Source: a virus. From it: a stretch of 45,648 nt of DNA. Of this stretch, positions 29,298 to 35,522 are shown in pieces. The translations under genes and the position numbers were made by a program. Under the pieces are notes generated by a model. That model saw only the letters and a list, made by a program, of their open reading frames with translations. It was not told the origin of the DNA and made no database searches. Location of the stretch: positions 1 to 45,648 of the IMG/VR virus record IMGVR_UViG_3300028041_000001; one strand, 5' to 3'. How positions within the stretch are numbered: the first letter of the stretch is position 1; every line of letters begins with the position of its first letter.

Positions 29298-29617
29298 TCC
29301 TCCGGCTGGGCGAGGCGGTAGAGATAGACTTGGCGGACGCAGCCGCCCGGGATCACCCGGCCCCACGAGCGGACATCGTAACGCACCGGGATTTTGTGGC
29401 GCGTCACCAGCCCCTTCCTGACCAGCGCCTTCAGCGCGTTGTGGACGGTTTCGCGACGCTCGCCGGTCGCGGCGACAATCTCGGGCAGGATCATCGGCAT
29501 GCCGCGCTCGCGCAGCGCCTTCAGCGCCGCCTCCTGGATGACCGGCGGCCTCAGCCAGCCGTCCAGGTGCTGGATGAAGTTGCGCTCGATCGCATGCCGA
29601 CGCTGCTTTGGCCTCAC
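29294..29617 (-). CDS. Winged-helix DNA-binding protein
   Basis: About 107 residues from GTG 29617, overlapping the exonuclease stop. The segment LPEIVAATGERRETVHNALK followed by ALVRKGLVTRHKIPVRYDV is a winged helix-turn-helix. Fits a replication-accessory or transcription factor (the wHTH next to the primase-helicase). No close family recognised. Confidence 0.65.
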   Translation of the reverse strand: MRPKQRRHAIERNFIQHLDGWLRPPVIQEAALKALRERGMPMILPEIVAATGERRETVHNALKALVRKGLVTRHKIPVRYDVRSWGRVIPGGCVRQVYLYRLAQPEE

Positions 29618-30525
29618 TGGCCGAAGCTCCACGCGCCCGCCTCGGGCGTCGCCGGCTTGGGTTCGCGCCAGCAGCGGGCGGCATAGTCGCAAAATTTGCA
29701 GCGGAAGTCGGCTGCCTTGGCGGCGACGCGCGGCAATTCCTCAGGGTCGGCGGTCGCAATAACCCGCACCGCCTTGTCGATGCTGGCCTGAATGAACGCC
29801 GGATCGGCCGGGATCAGCTCGGCATAGATTTCCTGAGTGTCGGCGTTCTTGCAGGTGAACAGCGCCGGGTTCTCGGCGAGGCCCAGGTGAAACATCCCCA
29901 TCTGAACCTGCGGGAAATAGTCGCCGCCATAGGCGCGAAGCCCGCCCTTTTCGAGCTTCTTCCAGCTCTTGCTGCCCAACTCCTTGTTCTCCCACATGAG
30001 GGGGTAGCGCATCGCAAACCCGGAGCCGTCCGGCAGCCTCAGCATCGCGGGGCCGGCGGTGATAACGCCGTCGATCATCCCCTTCACCCGGCCCTTGCCG
30101 TCCTCGTACTGAGCGATGTCGTAGCGAAACTGCTTGCCCGCCGCGTTTTCGGTCAGCAGCGTGAAGCCGGCGAGCCGCAGGTAGCGGGCCATCGCTTCTT
30201 CGCCCCAATGCCCCCGGTCGAAGATGCGGTAGAGCCTTCCGCTGAAGCCACGATCCCCGTCCTTGGGCGCCCGGTGGAACTCGTAGGCGATTGCCCGCAG
30301 ACATTCATTGCCGAGCCTGCCGGCGCCGATGGCCGGGCGGTTTGCAGTCGGTGTCGATGACCGATAGGCAGCGTCGTCGGAGTCCTTGGCCGCCTTGATC
30401 GCTGTGTCCAGATGCTCGCTGAAAGCGGCAGCAAAAGCCGCGCTCGGGCGCGGCATGAAGTCCATCGGGGCGGTCATCGGTCGGTCAGGATAATCGTCTG
30501 TCGGCATTTCATACAAGCCCCTCAA
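29614..30525 (-). CDS. PD-(D/E)XK exonuclease, Cas4/RecB-like with Fe-S cysteines
   Basis: 303 residues from ATG 30525 (starts at 30507 or 30474 also possible). A PD-(D/E)XK nuclease core is seen: VKGMIDGVITAGP (Asp) and MRYPLMWENKELGSKSWKKL (E-x-K-like). Cys in NECLRAI plus C-terminal CKFCDYAARCW give the four-Cys layout of Cas4/AddB Fe-S nucleases. Likely a 5'-3' exonuclease preparing ssDNA for the Sak4-like annealing ATPase. The first codons include the CTGTCTG/TTCATACA motif, so the true start may be downstream. Confidence 0.78.
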   Translation of the reverse strand: MRGLYEMPTDDYPDRPMTAPMDFMPRPSAAFAAAFSEHLDTAIKAAKDSDDAAYRSSTPTANRPAIGAGRLGNECLRAIAYEFHRAPKDGDRGFSGRLYRIFDRGHWGEEAMARYLRLAGFTLLTENAAGKQFRYDIAQYEDGKGRVKGMIDGVITAGPAMLRLPDGSGFAMRYPLMWENKELGSKSWKKLEKGGLRAYGGDYFPQVQMGMFHLGLAENPALFTCKNADTQEIYAELIPADPAFIQASIDKAVRVIATADPEELPRVAAKAADFRCKFCDYAARCWREPKPATPEAGAWSFGQ

Positions 30526-30530
30526 AAGAA

Positions 30531-30734
30531 TTATTCATCGCTGCCGATCGCGTCCCGCGCCCGCTCGGCGATCCGCCGCTGCGTCTCGGGCTGAAGCTGG
30601 TTGCAGGCGCCGCAATAATGGCCGAGCCGCTTCCTCAGCGGCGGGCCGATGCCGAACGGCGCGTTGGGCGCTCCGCAGCCGTCGCAGCTCGGCACATGCG
30701 GGGCGACTCCGGCGGCGATCCAGGGCCGGCTCAC
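30531..30734 (-). CDS. Small zinc-ribbon protein (67 aa)
   Basis: 67 residues from GTG 30734 (GTGA overlap with HNH stop). CDGCGAPNAPFGIGPPLRKR then HYCGACNQLQ give a CxxC...CxxC ribbon. Function unknown. Confidence 0.6.
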   Translation of the reverse strand: MSRPWIAAGVAPHVPSCDGCGAPNAPFGIGPPLRKRLGHYCGACNQLQPETQRRIAERARDAIGSDE

Positions 30735-31090
30735 GCCGCCCTCCCGGCGCGCCGCGCCCGCGCCTCGGCAATCGCTTCCTCGCGCTCGAGCTGGGCCTTG
30801 CGCGCCATCGCCTGAGCGAAGCGGAACTCGCGGACGACACGCTTGACCTGCTCGTTGGTGTCGAACCGTTTCCACCAGCGCGGGTGAGTGTCGATGAACC
30901 AAAACCAGTCGGCGGTGCCAAGGTCGCCCTTGAGCATGTTGCACTTGCGGCAGCACGGCACCCAGCGCCCGCCGCCGAGGCAGACGGCGTTGACATGGTC
31001 GCGCGTCAGGCTGGTCGACCGCTCCGGCTCGGCCGGCGTGAGCTGCCGCTTGCAATAGCAGCAATAGCCCTGATGCCGCGGCCGCTTCAT
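30731..31090 (-). CDS. HNH endonuclease (119 aa)
   Basis: A 119-residue protein from ATG 31090: YCCYCKRQLT, TRDHVNAVCLGGGRWVPCC, RKCNMLKGDL. The DHV...N...K pattern with surrounding CxxC pairs marks a zinc-stabilised HNH nuclease. The C-terminus is a long charged helix (MARKAQLEREEAIAEARA). It overlaps the 94-residue gene by 4 bases. Second HNH protein of the operon. Confidence 0.8.
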   Translation of the reverse strand: MKRPRHQGYCCYCKRQLTPAEPERSTSLTRDHVNAVCLGGGRWVPCCRKCNMLKGDLGTADWFWFIDTHPRWWKRFDTNEQVKRVVREFRFAQAMARKAQLEREEAIAEARARRAGRAA

Positions 31091-31371
31091 GGCGCAACCC
31101 GGTGGCTGAGCGCCTTGGGGACGCTGACGGGGACGCCGAACGTGGAATAGATGACCGAGGCTTTGGCGGGTCTGACCGTATGGCCGCGATATTCGGCGAC
31201 TTGCCGCCTGCCGAGCCGGCGGGCGAGGGCGCGGCGATCCTCGGCGTTGAGGCAGATTCGCCGCACCGCCATCTGCCGCCAGCGGCAAATCTCGAGCGCG
31301 CAGTCGATCCGCTCGGCGATGTCGGTCAGCCGGCTCACGCTCCGGTTCTCTCTGTCGCTATTTCGGATCAC
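31087..31371 (-). CDS. Hypothetical basic protein (94 aa)
   Basis: 94 residues from GTG 31371, overlapping the helicase stop (GTGA). Arg-rich, with a helical N-terminal half (SRLTDIAERIDCALEICRWR) and basic middle (NAEDRRALARRLGRRQVAEY). Probably nucleic-acid binding. No family recognised. Confidence 0.6.
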   Translation of the reverse strand: MIRNSDRENRSVSRLTDIAERIDCALEICRWRQMAVRRICLNAEDRRALARRLGRRQVAEYRGHTVRPAKASVIYSTFGVPVSVPKALSHRVAP

Positions 31372-33056
31372 GCCGCCATCCTCGCCGACCGCTCGAGGAT
31401 CCCGCGGATGGCTTTCTCGCTCCACTTCCACTGCAGCAGGCAGGTCGCCCGGTACTTGGTCAGGCCGAGCGCGTGGAGCGGCTGCAGGCCGAGCATGGCG
31501 AGCTGCTTGTCGCTCGGCGGCTCGGTCATCCACCGTTTCGCCTTGTTGGCGGCGCTGGCGTCGCCATGCTCGCGCAGGAAATCGTCCGCGGCGCTCATCG
31601 CCAGCAGTCTGTCGCCATTGTCGGCAAGGTGGCAAATCCCGACATCGCGCCCGCCGCCGATCGCATGCCAATGGCCGTGAAAAGCGATGACCGCCGCCCA
31701 GGCGTCGATGCCCGACGCCATCGACACCAGCCCGTCGAACAAATTCTCGTAGCGGAACGGGCTGTCGGCGAGCAGGTCGACTTCGGTAAGCACGAACTCG
31801 GCCAGCCCGTCGCGGGTCTTTGGGCCGCTGTCGCTGCCGACGCCGGGAGCGATTAGCGCCCCGTTCTCGTCGCGCGGCCACTCGAAGCCGCAGATCGCGC
31901 AGTCGCGCATCTGATAGGGAACGAGCGCATCGCACTCCGGGCAATTCTTGACCCCGGCCGCGTCAATGTCGACGTCCTGCTCGATCGAGCCGTGCGTCAG
32001 GATCGAGGTTCCGAAGTCCATGACGATACAATCGTCCTTGACCACTCCGGGGTAGCGCGACGGCTCGACCTTGCGAAGGCCGCGGCCGATCATCTGGATC
32101 ATCGTCGACTTGTAGCTGCTCGGGCGAAGCAGGATGACGCAGCTCGTCGGCTGATGATCCCAGCCTTCGGTCAGGACGGCGACGTTGGTGATGACCTGCA
32201 GCTCGCCGCGGTCGTAGGCGGCCAGCGTCTCGCGCCGCTCGGCCGCGCTCATCTTACCTTCGACCGTTGCCGCCCGATAGCCCATCGCCCGGAACGTTTC
32301 GGCGACATGGGTGGCGTGGGCGACGGTCGAGCAGAACACGACGGTCTGCCGGTCGCCGGCAACCTTGCTCCATTCCTCAACGACGCGGTCGTTGAGAACG
32401 GTCTTGTCCATGATCCTTTCGACCGCCGCCATGTCGAAATCGGAAATGGTCTTCTTGACCCCGCGCAACTCCTCCTGAACGCCGAGGTCGACGACCAGGG
32501 TGCGCGGCCTGACCAGCAGCCGGGCCTCGATCAGCTCTTTGAGCGTGATCTGATCGGCGACATTGTCGACGACCGCGCGCAGCGCCTTGCGGTCGCCGCG
32601 CTCCGGCGTCGCCGTCACCAGCAGCAGCTTGACCTTGGGGTTGCGCTCCTTGGCGCGGTGGATGATCTTTAGATAGGACGGGGCGACGGCATGGTGGCCT
32701 TCGTCGATCGCCAGCACATCGACCGGCGGCATGCCGTCGAGGTTCTTGTCGTTCGCCAGCGTCGCCACCATCGCGAAGGTGCAGCCGTAGCCCCATTGCT
32801 TCGCTTGCGACGTGAACAGCCCGGTCGAGGCTCGCGGGTTGACCTTCTCGAAGGTTGCCCGGTTCTGGCTCACCAGCTCGTCGCGGTGCTGCAGGATGAT
32901 CGCCGAGGCGCCCTGGCGGACATAGCCGCCGGCGACCGCCGACAGCATGACCGTCTTGCCGGCGCCGGTCGGCGCCACCCCGAGGGTGTTGCCGCGCTCA
33001 TCGAGCGCGGCAATGGCTTTATCTACGAAAACCCTCTGTCTCGGACGCAGTTGCAT
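31368..33056 (-). CDS. SF2 DEAD/DEAH-type helicase with zinc ribbon
   Basis: A 562-residue helicase from ATG 33056 (an upstream in-frame start is possible). Motif I APTGAGKTV (28-36), motif II DEGH (118-121), motif III TATPERGD (about 150), and motif VI QMIGRGLRK (about 318) are all present. A zinc ribbon follows (CPECDALVPYQMRDCAICGF, about 367-386). This layout is the phage recombination-helicase type (UvsW-like), remodelling forks and D-loops. The C-terminal 170 residues are less conserved. It overlaps the upstream gene by 38 bases. Confidence 0.9.
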   Translation of the reverse strand: MQLRPRQRVFVDKAIAALDERGNTLGVAPTGAGKTVMLSAVAGGYVRQGASAIILQHRDELVSQNRATFEKVNPRASTGLFTSQAKQWGYGCTFAMVATLANDKNLDGMPPVDVLAIDEGHHAVAPSYLKIIHRAKERNPKVKLLLVTATPERGDRKALRAVVDNVADQITLKELIEARLLVRPRTLVVDLGVQEELRGVKKTISDFDMAAVERIMDKTVLNDRVVEEWSKVAGDRQTVVFCSTVAHATHVAETFRAMGYRAATVEGKMSAAERRETLAAYDRGELQVITNVAVLTEGWDHQPTSCVILLRPSSYKSTMIQMIGRGLRKVEPSRYPGVVKDDCIVMDFGTSILTHGSIEQDVDIDAAGVKNCPECDALVPYQMRDCAICGFEWPRDENGALIAPGVGSDSGPKTRDGLAEFVLTEVDLLADSPFRYENLFDGLVSMASGIDAWAAVIAFHGHWHAIGGGRDVGICHLADNGDRLLAMSAADDFLREHGDASAANKAKRWMTEPPSDKQLAMLGLQPLHALGLTKYRATCLLQWKWSEKAIRGILERSARMAA

Positions 33057-33270
33057 CCTCACCCCCGTCATGGACGACCTTGACGCCCACGTTCCGAAGC
33101 AGCCAGTCACTCGCGCGCTGGCGGATGTCCGGGCAGAAGCCCTCGCATGCCAGCCGCATCATGTCCGTGATCGGCTGTGATTGGCCCGGTTGGGCGGCAT
33201 ATTGTTGCGCCGCCCCTGCGAAAGCGAGCCGTTCCGACCCGCCAATCCCCACTCTCTGCATCACGCTCAC
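33019..33270 (-). CDS. Hypothetical protein (83 aa)
   Basis: 83 residues from GTG 33270, one base after the SSB stop. RLACEGFCPDIRQRASDWLL suggests a helical domain with two Cys; the C-terminus overlaps the helicase start by 38 bases, an unusually long overlap. Function unknown; its place between SSB and helicase suggests a recombination-linked role. Confidence 0.6.
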   Translation of the reverse strand: MSVMQRVGIGGSERLAFAGAAQQYAAQPGQSQPITDMMRLACEGFCPDIRQRASDWLLRNVGVKVVHDGGEDATASETEGFRR

Positions 33271-34086
33271 CTATCCTTGGGGCGCGCCACCGGCCTGTTG
33301 AAGCCACCCCGGCGTCGCCCCCGGGTTAGAAGGGGGCGCAGTCGCAGCGGCCGGTGAGGTCGATGGCGTACCCGCACTCGTCGCAAATCCCCCGCTCGAC
33401 TCCGAGCTTGTCGCCGGGGGCTGCTGAAAACCCGGCTGTGGCCCTCCCCCCGGAGCGCCGAAGCCGGACGTCGGGGTGGCAGGGGCAGGTTGGGAACCGG
33501 CACTTGTTCCCGCATTGCCGAAGCCACCGAATTGCTGCTGGGCGCCGGGGGCGGGCGCAGCCGGTGCGCCAAAGCCGCTGGCCGGAGGCTGCTGGGCTTG
33601 GGCGCTGGCATTGAAGATGCCCTGAACGAGCTTCTGATAATGCTTGTGGCCGGACTGGCTCGCCGGGTTCGGCGTCAGCCATTCGCTCACCCGGTTCTTG
33701 TCGTCATGCCCGTCCTTTCCTGCCTCGACGCCGATCTTGATGGCGACCCGAAGGTTGCTCAGCTCGGCAAAGTCGTTCAGCTTGTAGCCGGCCGGGTTGT
33801 TCGGGCCGGCGCCGCGCCCCGCCTCCAAGATGCGGGTAATGGCGATCATGCCCATCTGCCGGTAGGCTTCGCTGTTGCCCTGATGGAACGGGTTTCCGAT
33901 CATCTCGAAAACCCTGCGTCCCGCATAGGGCTGCCCCTGGTCGATCGTCAGCTCGCAGTCGATATATTGACCGCCTGAAGCCGAAGACTTGACCCCTTTC
34001 ACCTGCAGGATCGCCCATGCGAGCTGCCCGTTGGGAATGGTGTCGAACGTCGAGGCGGCCCCTGCGTGACTGCTGAAATCCATCAT
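33271..34086 (-). CDS. Single-stranded DNA-binding protein (DUF669-like), zero-frame product
   Basis: A 271-residue protein. Residues 1-160 are an OB-fold-like domain of the DUF669 type (IPNGQLAWAILQVKGVKSSA ... GGQYIDCELTIDQGQPYAGR). Residues from about 165 on are low-complexity (FGAPAAPAPGAQQQFGGFGN), the expected intrinsically disordered SSB linker. In zero frame the tail lacks the acidic tip usual for bacterial SSBs. At codons 219-220 lies a slippery heptamer, after which the -1 frame gives a Cys-rich tail (separate entry). It coats ssDNA and partners the Sak4-like ATPase encoded just upstream. Confidence 0.82.
   Translation of the reverse strand: MMDFSSHAGAASTFDTIPNGQLAWAILQVKGVKSSASGGQYIDCELTIDQGQPYAGRRVFEMIGNPFHQGNSEAYRQMGMIAITRILEAGRGAGPNNPAGYKLNDFAELSNLRVAIKIGVEAGKDGHDDKNRVSEWLTPNPASQSGHKHYQKLVQGIFNASAQAQQPPASGFGAPAAPAPGAQQQFGGFGNAGTSAGSQPAPATPTSGFGAPGGGPQPGFQQPPATSSESSGGFATSAGTPSTSPAAATAPPSNPGATPGWLQQAGGAPQG
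33326..33433 (-). other. Candidate -1 programmed frameshift site and zinc-knuckle tail of SSB
   Basis: The heptamer GGGTTTT (33433-33427) is in the X-XXY-YYZ phase of the SSB frame (G GGT TTT). After a 6-base spacer (CAGCAG) a hairpin starts: CCCCCG 33420-33415 pairs with CGGGGG 33394-33389, and an inner CTCG/CGAG pairs with a GAGT loop. A -1 shift appends 33 residues, ending at TAA 33326 and containing ICDECGYAIDLTGRCDC (CxxC-x9-CxC). By hand count, 29 of 33 -1-frame codons end in G/C against 22 of 33 in zero frame, so the -1 frame looks selected. The fused product would be 253 residues. Confidence 0.65.
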
Positions 34087-34131: not shown

Positions 34132-35061
34132 TCACCGGGCGCGAATCACCCCGCCGGGGGGGGCCGGCGCCGAATAATTGGGCTGGTCGATGCGCGGCCC
34201 CGACTGGATCTTCTTCATCAGCGCTCCGAGGTCGGGCGCCTCGAGCAGCGCCAGCCGGCCGCTGCGATCCTTGGCCGGGACTCCGTAGCCGTTGTGAAGG
34301 TGGCAGATGAAGCCGCGCTCGGTGCCTTTCTGGAAGTCGAGGACGGGCGTTCCGCTCGATACGTCGAACAGCCCGCCGGTGATGACCTGGTCGAAAATGC
34401 CCGGCAGCTCGCGGCCGGTCTTGCCGCCTTCGACCTGGGCGGAATATTCGGCCCGGCCGAAGTCGTCCTTGCCGCAGTCGAGGATGCCGACGACGATGAT
34501 GCTCTTGCCCGGGATGTGCTGGGCCTGGGTGAGCCAAGCCACCATTTCCTGCCCCATCAGGCCATAGGCGCCGCGCGTGTCGGGCTTGCCGGTCTTGTCG
34601 CTGAACGCTTCCGGCTGGCGCTTCGACCAGGCGAAGGCGTGGCGGCTGGCGACGGTGATCGAATCGACGAACACCGTCTCGAAGGCGTCGAATTGCGAGC
34701 GCGGGCCGAGCGTGGCTTCGTAGCTCGCCAGAGCCTCGGCCGAATAAGGGCTGCCGGGAGCCGCGGCCGGGTCGGCGCCGCCGAGCATGCAGACGATCGC
34801 CCGCGCCAGCTCCCACGGATGAACCCCGGCCTTGGCCGCCTCCTCGCGGACGTTGACGGTCGAGCCGAGCCAGGCGTCGCTGCCGTCAGGCTTGTCGCCG
34901 TTCAGTGCCAAGGTGCCGGCCTCGAGGTCGAGGAACAAAGTCGTCGCGGCGTCGAGGGTGCGCGCCTGATAGGTCTTGCCCCAGCCGGACGGCGCGAACA
35001 GCGCGATGTTGACCTTGGGCTTGGTCGCCAGCCGTTCTTCGGCGGAAACGATCTTCAGCAT
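34132..35061 (-). CDS. Sak4-like recombination ATPase (AAA_24 type)
   Basis: A 309-residue P-loop protein: LFAPSGWGKTYQARTLD (Walker A, about residues 20-32), TLFLDLEAGTLALNG, TVFVDSITVASRHAF (Walker B-like) and IIVVGILDCGKDD. This RecA-core layout matches the phage Sak4/AAA_24 family of single-strand annealing ATPases, usually encoded beside an SSB, as here. C-terminus is Pro-rich. Start at 35061 follows the previous stop by 2 bases. It should pair with the exonuclease and SSB in phage recombination. Confidence 0.8.
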   Translation of the reverse strand: MLKIVSAEERLATKPKVNIALFAPSGWGKTYQARTLDAATTLFLDLEAGTLALNGDKPDGSDAWLGSTVNVREEAAKAGVHPWELARAIVCMLGGADPAAAPGSPYSAEALASYEATLGPRSQFDAFETVFVDSITVASRHAFAWSKRQPEAFSDKTGKPDTRGAYGLMGQEMVAWLTQAQHIPGKSIIVVGILDCGKDDFGRAEYSAQVEGGKTGRELPGIFDQVITGGLFDVSSGTPVLDFQKGTERGFICHLHNGYGVPAKDRSGRLALLEAPDLGALMKKIQSGPRIDQPNYSAPAPPGGVIRAR

Positions 35062-35063
35062 TA

Positions 35064-35522
35064 TCAGTCCTCCCTGATGAGGGTGATCGCCGGCTCGGCG
35101 ATCTTGGTGGTGCGCGCCGCGTCGATCTTGGCGCGAAGCTCGGGGCTGAGCGCGGCGACGCCGGCGTAGATTTTCTCGCTCATCGAAAATTCGATCTTGA
35201 ACAAAGCGTCGACGCGCTCCCACGGCAGGGTCTTGGCGACATCCATCAGCGCCGCACTGTCCCATTTGACCATTTGCTTGACGTCGCCCTTGACCTTGAA
35301 GCCGTCCTGCAGCTCGAGCGTGACGCTGCCGTGATCCTTTTCGGCCTGGGCGAGCGCCTGCCTGACGCTATCGCCGTAGCGGCGGCCCAGCTCCGCCTTG
35401 ACTTGCGCGAGCCGCGCCTTCAGGGACGCGACGCCGCTGGCATAGCCTTCCTGAAGCTCAAGGAGCTGGGGAAGCGTCGCCTTGGCAAGGTCGCGATCGA
35501 GGGATTTGGCTGGTGCGTCCAC
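35064..35522 (-). CDS. Hypothetical protein (152 aa) in recombination operon
   Basis: A 152-residue protein: an N-terminal coiled coil (LQEGYASGVASLKARLAQVK), a beta region (GSVTLELQDGFKVKGDVKQM) and a helical end (MSEKIYAGVAALSPELRAKI). It sits between the Cro-like gene and the Sak4-like ATPase. Proteins of this size and place are often recombination-associated factors, but no family is recognised. Confidence 0.6.
   Translation of the reverse strand: MDAPAKSLDRDLAKATLPQLLELQEGYASGVASLKARLAQVKAELGRRYGDSVRQALAQAEKDHGSVTLELQDGFKVKGDVKQMVKWDSAALMDVAKTLPWERVDALFKIEFSMSEKIYAGVAALSPELRAKIDAARTTKIAEPAITLIRED

Follow-up and report, generated by a model that had tools for sequence, protein, structure and literature searches.

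A probable programmed -1 frameshift in a phage ssb gene that may restrict an SSB-tip-like C-terminus to one of two products

The window analysed here, a viral contig from IMG/VR, comprises 45,648 bases. Its minus strand carries an ssb gene (33271..34086), recognised by ORF reading, an AlphaFold2 core and a PDB fold match, which starts at 34086, ends at 33271 and encodes 271 aa in its zero frame. The coordinates given in a preliminary description of this DNA hold for the tail and the slippery heptamer discussed below, not for the span of the gene. Directly upstream lies a gene for a Sak4-like annealase (34132..35067, minus strand, start codon approximate; phrog_124 E=5.9e-31, Pfam AAA_24), and sak4 was found upstream of ssb at all loci checked. 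Between ssb and the helicase gene is a small ORF (33019..33270, minus strand) with a match in the contig of the relative L005 (MMRLALEGVSPQIRQLAAHWLKRMVGV); peptides resembling it by eye are encoded in L003 and L004. The helicase is a RadD/ResIII-like SF2 enzyme (31368..33110, minus strand; NCBIfam RadD E=2.7e-36, phrog_16, PDB RadD 6jde E=2e-19), which scores 125 bits against the 720 required by the NCBIfam RadD equivalog cut-off. Its C-terminus holds a four-Cys segment (NCPECDALVPYQMRDCAICG, Pfam UPF0547) that recalls the zinc ribbon reported for RadD. The same recombination cassette contains a Cas4-domain exonuclease gene (29614..30525, minus strand; phrog_1990 E=3.6e-51) and an ORF at 30731-31288 (minus strand) whose cysteines follow an HNH-like pattern (GYCCYCKRQL...RDHVNAVCLGGG...CCRKCNMLKG). 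The gene order is kept in 15 other loci as far as the contigs reach; L072 gave no helicase match.

No model of Pfam, PHROG or NCBIfam matches the window SSB directly. Its relatives match phrog_378, 6015 and 9002 ('single strand DNA binding protein'), and AlphaFold2 modelling on 29 family members gave a core with pLDDT >90. The best PDB fold match of this core is PrgE of plasmid pCF10 (8s4s, E=1e-4), an ssDNA-binding protein with 16-17% identity and thus a relative at the level of the fold only; bacterial SSBs appear in the same search at E 0.06 and worse. The label 'DUF669-type', used in the preliminary description, fits as far as the fold is concerned, since several BFVD fold matches (E ~1e-4 to 1e-7) are phage proteins so named, but Pfam DUF669 (PF05037) does not match the window protein, and the best of the 29 family members, the only one to reach E=0.0017, stays below the curated cut-off. 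Judged by its modelled fold and by its sak4 and helicase neighbours, the window protein appears to be an OB-fold SSB that would bind ssDNA.

The zero-frame protein consists of the OB-fold core (approximately residues 18-155) and a low-complexity linker, and ends ...GWLQQAGGAPQG; this tail contains Trp (...GWLQQAG...) and lacks a tip. The -1 frame of the gene is open as well and ends CDECGYAIDLTGRCDCAPF before its stop codon. Read in this frame from GGG, the sequence yields GFSAAPGDKLGVERGICDECGYAIDLTGRCDCAPF and a stop; that is, Gly-Phe is followed by a tail of 33 residues (SAAPGDKLGVERGICDECGYAIDLTGRCDCAPF; 33329..33427, minus strand) and by TAA at 33328-33326. Similar tails occur in eight relatives. 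The predicted product has 271 aa when read in the zero frame and 253 aa after a -1 shift, and both lengths, like the 33-residue extension with its CxxC-x9-CxC pattern and terminal TAA, had been put forward before and follow from the sequence. Over the 35 codons from GGG, third-position G/C amounts to 30/35 in the -1 frame versus 22/35 in the zero frame, in agreement with the earlier counts of 29/33 and 22/33, which were made without the Gly-Phe codons.

Four cysteines of the -1 tail form a cluster, C-x2-C-x9-C-x-C (33338..33385, minus strand), which might possibly bind metal. The name 'zinc knuckle' that it had been given does not hold in its strict sense: such a knuckle is of the CCHC type (C-x2-C-x4-H-x4-C), the pattern found here has no His and no Pfam match, and none of the Pfam zinc families matched the window -1 ORF. 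The tail then closes with Ala-Pro-Phe-stop (33326..33337, minus strand), a C-terminus resembling the SSB tip that had gone unremarked. In E. coli, SSB ends with MDFDDDIPF, and many partner proteins, RadD among them, have pockets in which these residues dock (PMC10238739).

The two reading frames would be joined at a slippery heptamer, G_GGT_TTT (33427..33433, minus strand), which lies in ssb phase (codons ...CCG GGT TTT CAG CAG...) as first reported. It is followed by a six-base spacer, CAGCAG (33421..33426, minus strand), again as reported, and by a candidate stimulatory hairpin (33389..33420, minus strand) identified by RNAfold and by stem comparison with relatives. The outer arms of this hairpin, CCCCCG/CGGGGG, are those originally described; the inner pairing CTCG/CGAG gives way to CGAC/GTCG in the RNAfold structure. 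The window stem is only moderately more stable than other parts of the gene, as 18-33% of stretches along the gene fold equally stably, and it is less distinctive because the gene is GC-rich. No Rfam family matches the region. Transcriptional slippage was set aside, the T run being only four bases long. A purine run resembling a Shine-Dalgarno (SD) sequence (GGGGGGAGGG; 33442..33451, minus strand; read from the sequence), 8 nt upstream of the heptamer, is a possible extra stimulator of the shift, but it is confined to the window, with no counterpart in the relatives, and therefore lies outside the conserved signal. On mammalian ribosomes, G_GGU_UUU counts as one of the most shift-prone heptamers (PMC5009743). 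In E. coli, shift-prone tetramers rank A_AA.G > U_UU.Y > C_CC.Y, and the heptamers that shift most efficiently include H_HH.U_UU.Y (PMC4066793); G_GGU_UUU is not in the class named there as most efficient, and the shift rate could therefore be low.

Profile scans together with a scan of sak4 neighbours gave 105 distinct SSB homologues among the matches listed. In the first scan, L003, L004 and L005 all had an in-phase GGGTTTT and a four-Cys -1 tail ending in Pro-Phe-stop. Altogether, a -1 tail with this ending was found in the window and in eight of the 105 listed homologues (L003, L004, L005, L008, L054, L012, L222 and L276). Among the same 105, no further -1-frame ORF and no +1-frame tail ends in P-F/Y-stop. 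The zero frame of the GGGTTTT relatives ends WL.QAN (a W-L-x-Q-A motif). Core identity is roughly 55-69% for the five GGGTTTT relatives and 39% for L012. The SSBs of the sak4 neighbours L046-L051 had no shift, nothing closely related to the window SSB turned up in the annotated phage and plasmid collections, and 398 genomes from the order of the Erythrobacter match contributed no further member. Matches in Wolbachia and Acidithiobacillus phages were distant. As a specificity control, a DNA-pattern scan with GGGTTTTNNNCAGCCCC returned at least 119 stretches; two known members aside, none of the pattern matches listed had the Cys/Pro-Phe tail.

A single record is insufficient against a sequencing or assembly frameshift error, or against an originally in-frame Cys tail having been disrupted by a recent indel, and the preliminary description had itself named this alternative. 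However, the two-frame layout is the same in nine divergent sequences of differing sample origin, with the zero frame open in each, and a zero-frame Cys tail is present in 0 of the 105 listed homologues, so that error or indel is left with a practically negligible probability. A Cys tail in the zero frame and a lack of conservation, the two outcomes that had been named as speaking against the frameshift, were both sought in the homologues and not found. The -1 frame might also be a separate small overlapping gene with its own start, and the window -1 ORF does contain an ATG, which lies 118 codons ahead of the ORF's end. Yet in five of the nine sequences (L003, L004, L005, L012 and L276) the -1 ORF has no ATG, GTG or TTG, and there the tail is therefore only possible as an extension of SSB. 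Moreover, no available start has an SD-like sequence, and a separate gene would leave the slippery heptamer and the stem unexplained. We give such a gene hardly any credence.

The window heptamer recurs in the same phase and place in L003, L004, L005, L008 and L054, and the remaining three relatives have other sites. The distant homologue L276 (3170-4249, plus strand) would shift at C_CCT_TTC into ...RRTEFDDEIPF and a stop, an acidic tip without cysteines; about 23 codons of open -1 frame precede the site with no start codon among them, which makes it the cleanest case. C_CC.U_UU.C supports high-level shifting in E. coli (PMC4066793). In L012 (4995-5828, plus strand), the candidate site is A_AAC_CCG, with a GGGC/GCCC hairpin 5 nt after it and an A_AAT_TTG heptamer farther upstream. 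In L222/L223 (L222: 2907-3641, plus strand), the site has shrunk to the tetramer T_TTT within GGT CCT TTT CCG. Heptamers of the form XXXYYYZ are rare in phase in the linkers of the 96 non-shifting homologues (11 in 4,320 positions), and GGGTTTT and CCCTTTC never occur there in phase.

Downstream of the site, L003, L004, L008, L054 and L222 share a common geometry, in which a spacer of 5 nt precedes a GC stem of 5 bp with a loop of 7-8 nt. Elsewhere in eight of the shifting genes, this geometry occurred at only 5 of 1,853 in-phase positions. A longer stem that begins 5-6 nt downstream is present in the window and L005, L012 has a weaker one (four pairs and one mismatch, swapped in orientation like that of L222), and L276 has no stem of the shared geometry. 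The arms of L222 read GGGGC...GCCCC versus GCCCC...GGGGC elsewhere, and three stem pairs flip from C-G to G-C on both sides. Such paired changes, seen in five sequences whose alignment was hand-cut to the geometry, are suggestive of a conserved stem. A tree of 66 sequences requires at least three changes for the shifting genes (two when only starred branches are trusted); it sets apart L276, with its different heptamer and tip, and places L222 and L012 on long branches of unsure position. L276 may have gained its shift independently, or the shift may be ancient and have disappeared many times.

The tail was further analysed by resampling, in which the zero-frame protein was kept fixed and synonymous codons were redrawn. 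For the window, 0 of 40,000 trials produced a -1 frame with at least four Cys and ending in Pro-Phe-stop; for six relatives, 0.0025-0.26% of trials did. These values come from related sequences (cores ~40-70% identical, tails nearly unalignable outside the motif) and are not freely multipliable. In pairwise comparisons of the tails, zero-frame third positions differed least (109 of 400 codon comparisons) and -1-frame third positions most (162), the alignment being guided by the -1 peptide, which favours a low zero-third-position count somewhat. In the upstream linker (281/412) and in the core (1186/2362), by contrast, it is the zero-frame third positions that show the most differences. With a zero-frame-guided alignment of the same stretch the pattern is flatter and zero third positions differ most (285, 278 and 350 of 624). 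L054 ends GTCCCTTTCTGA where others have CCCTTCT, by which the -1 frame stays Val-Pro-Phe and a zero-frame Pro becomes Leu.

These data also bear on the idea that the frameshift product is a minor by-product and that the role of the signal is autoregulation of translation or mRNA through ribosome pausing. A low shift efficiency would suit such a role. Against it, the -1 amino-acid pattern (Cys, Pro-Phe-stop) is conserved while the DNA diverges, which argues that the peptide itself is selected, and we consider the by-product explanation very unlikely. As judged by comparison of sequences, the -1 tail is very probably made by a selected, programmed frameshift. This is what the preliminary description had claimed, and site, stem and both frames are conserved in divergent phages.

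The terminal Pro-Phe-stop is the sole feature common to the nine -1 tails. Their ends read APF, VPF, IPF, VVPF and SIPF, and the residues leading up to Pro-Phe include EFDDEIPF (L276), DDCDHSIPF (L008), CQCVPF (L003) and CACVVPF (L005). With the exception of L276, these tips are less acidic than DDDIPF, and partner binding may therefore differ. Two close relatives, L011 and L052, have no tip in any frame, and the tip is therefore dispensable in some phages. It could still be that the shift is real and that the four-Cys cluster is its functional part, serving as a metal-bound module that contacts DNA, links SSBs to one another or selects partners, while Pro-Phe is incidental. This comes close to the earlier view, and four Cys are indeed kept in eight of the nine tails. 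Their spacing, however, is variable (roughly C-x2-C ... C-x(1-4)-C in those eight), no Pfam zinc family matches, and L276, whose tail has zero Cys, shifts into the acidic EFDDEIPF all the same. A primary role of the cysteines is therefore unlikely in our judgement, and the tip is more probably the part that matters.

Tips also exist without a shift in this family, as 24 of the 105 listed homologues end in P-F/Y-stop in the zero frame. L009, for example, ends ...DDEIPF in its zero frame (...GWLAQANAQPGDDEIPF) and has the W motif and the tip on one chain; the shifting genes split these ends by frame, with the W motif in the zero frame (in most of them) and the tip in the -1 frame. Nearly all members of the family have a Trp close to the C-terminus (WLxQAN, PAWLK, PAWAQ), with W260 invariant in a 29-row alignment, and this Trp may be a second docking motif.

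We therefore favour, with a probability of about 0.7, a two-way decoding of ssb in which the shifted form alone would bear the docking tip and would set partner recruitment; metering of the tip is the probable purpose of the shift. Most ribosomes would finish in the zero frame and produce a tip-less, Trp-tailed SSB. A fraction, with help from the GC hairpin that follows after 5-6 nt, would slip by -1 on GGGTTTT and add the four-Cys segment and the SSB-tip-like end ...CDCAPF-COOH. With the tip on the shifted form only, the shift would set the number of recruiting SSB subunits on ssDNA. The computation shows that both frames are conserved, and it shows the slippery site with its stem, the tip-like ends and the neighbouring genes; slipping, its rate, the mixing of both forms on DNA and the identity of the partner are what we infer here.

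The Sak4 annealase encoded next door would be the most likely partner, followed by the RadD-like helicase encoded downstream or by host SSB-interacting proteins; Sak4 and helicase had both been suggested before and are plausible. In phage HK620, Sak4 binds SSB-coated ssDNA and is stimulated only if the SSB retains its six terminal residues, NDYPPF (PMC5928155). Given this precedent and phrog_124 in common, the mechanism that we would consider best supported, by analogy, is that the shifted form recruits Sak4. The case for the helicase is weaker: at the RadD tip-pocket positions R21, R49 and R145, only R145 has a basic residue (Lys) in the phage enzyme, in an alignment read by eye. As a tentative extension, a fixed minority of tip-bearing subunits might meter the loading of Sak4 (and of the helicase), with sites and tips that differ by lineage and possibly have more than one origin, and docking could depend on metal or redox state through the Cys segment beside the tip.

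The number of SSB tips, and with it the balance between ssDNA protection and enzyme recruitment, is usually studied with engineered tail-less mixtures. If the proposed decoding is right, one gene naturally makes mixed SSB tails, in a ratio set by a slippery site and tunable by single-base changes. Programmed frameshifting would then extend to phage SSB genes, with a two-product output as the prediction, and the current annotation of such genes would be lacking the tip-bearing form.

Among known systems, dnaX likewise uses a -1 shift in a replication gene to make two forms, tau and gamma, that differ in their partner-binding C-terminal part. There the shifted form loses interaction domains, whereas that of the phage SSB would gain a tip, and gene, site and stem differ. 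The phage tail assembly chaperone G/GT likewise combines a conserved -1 shift with two C-termini (Xu et al. 2004, cited in PMC10885494); it is a structural tail gene whose extension is not an SSB docking tip. We found no earlier report of frameshifting in an SSB gene in the open-access literature searched. The Sak4-SSB pair of HK620 resembles the window in that sak4 lies beside ssb, the SSB has a bacterial-like tip and both Sak4 proteins match phrog_124. In contrast, the HK620 SSB belongs to a different family (phrog_743) that has no significant profile match to the one described here, and its tip is in frame on every subunit, with no frameshift. With the bacterial SSB C-terminus (E. coli ...DDDIPF) the phage protein shares a C-terminal Pro-Phe after a flexible linker, as well as a RadD-like helicase in the cassette. 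However, the phage tip would be reached only through a -1 shift, comes after four Cys and has less acidic character, and the RadD pocket arginines are not clearly conserved.
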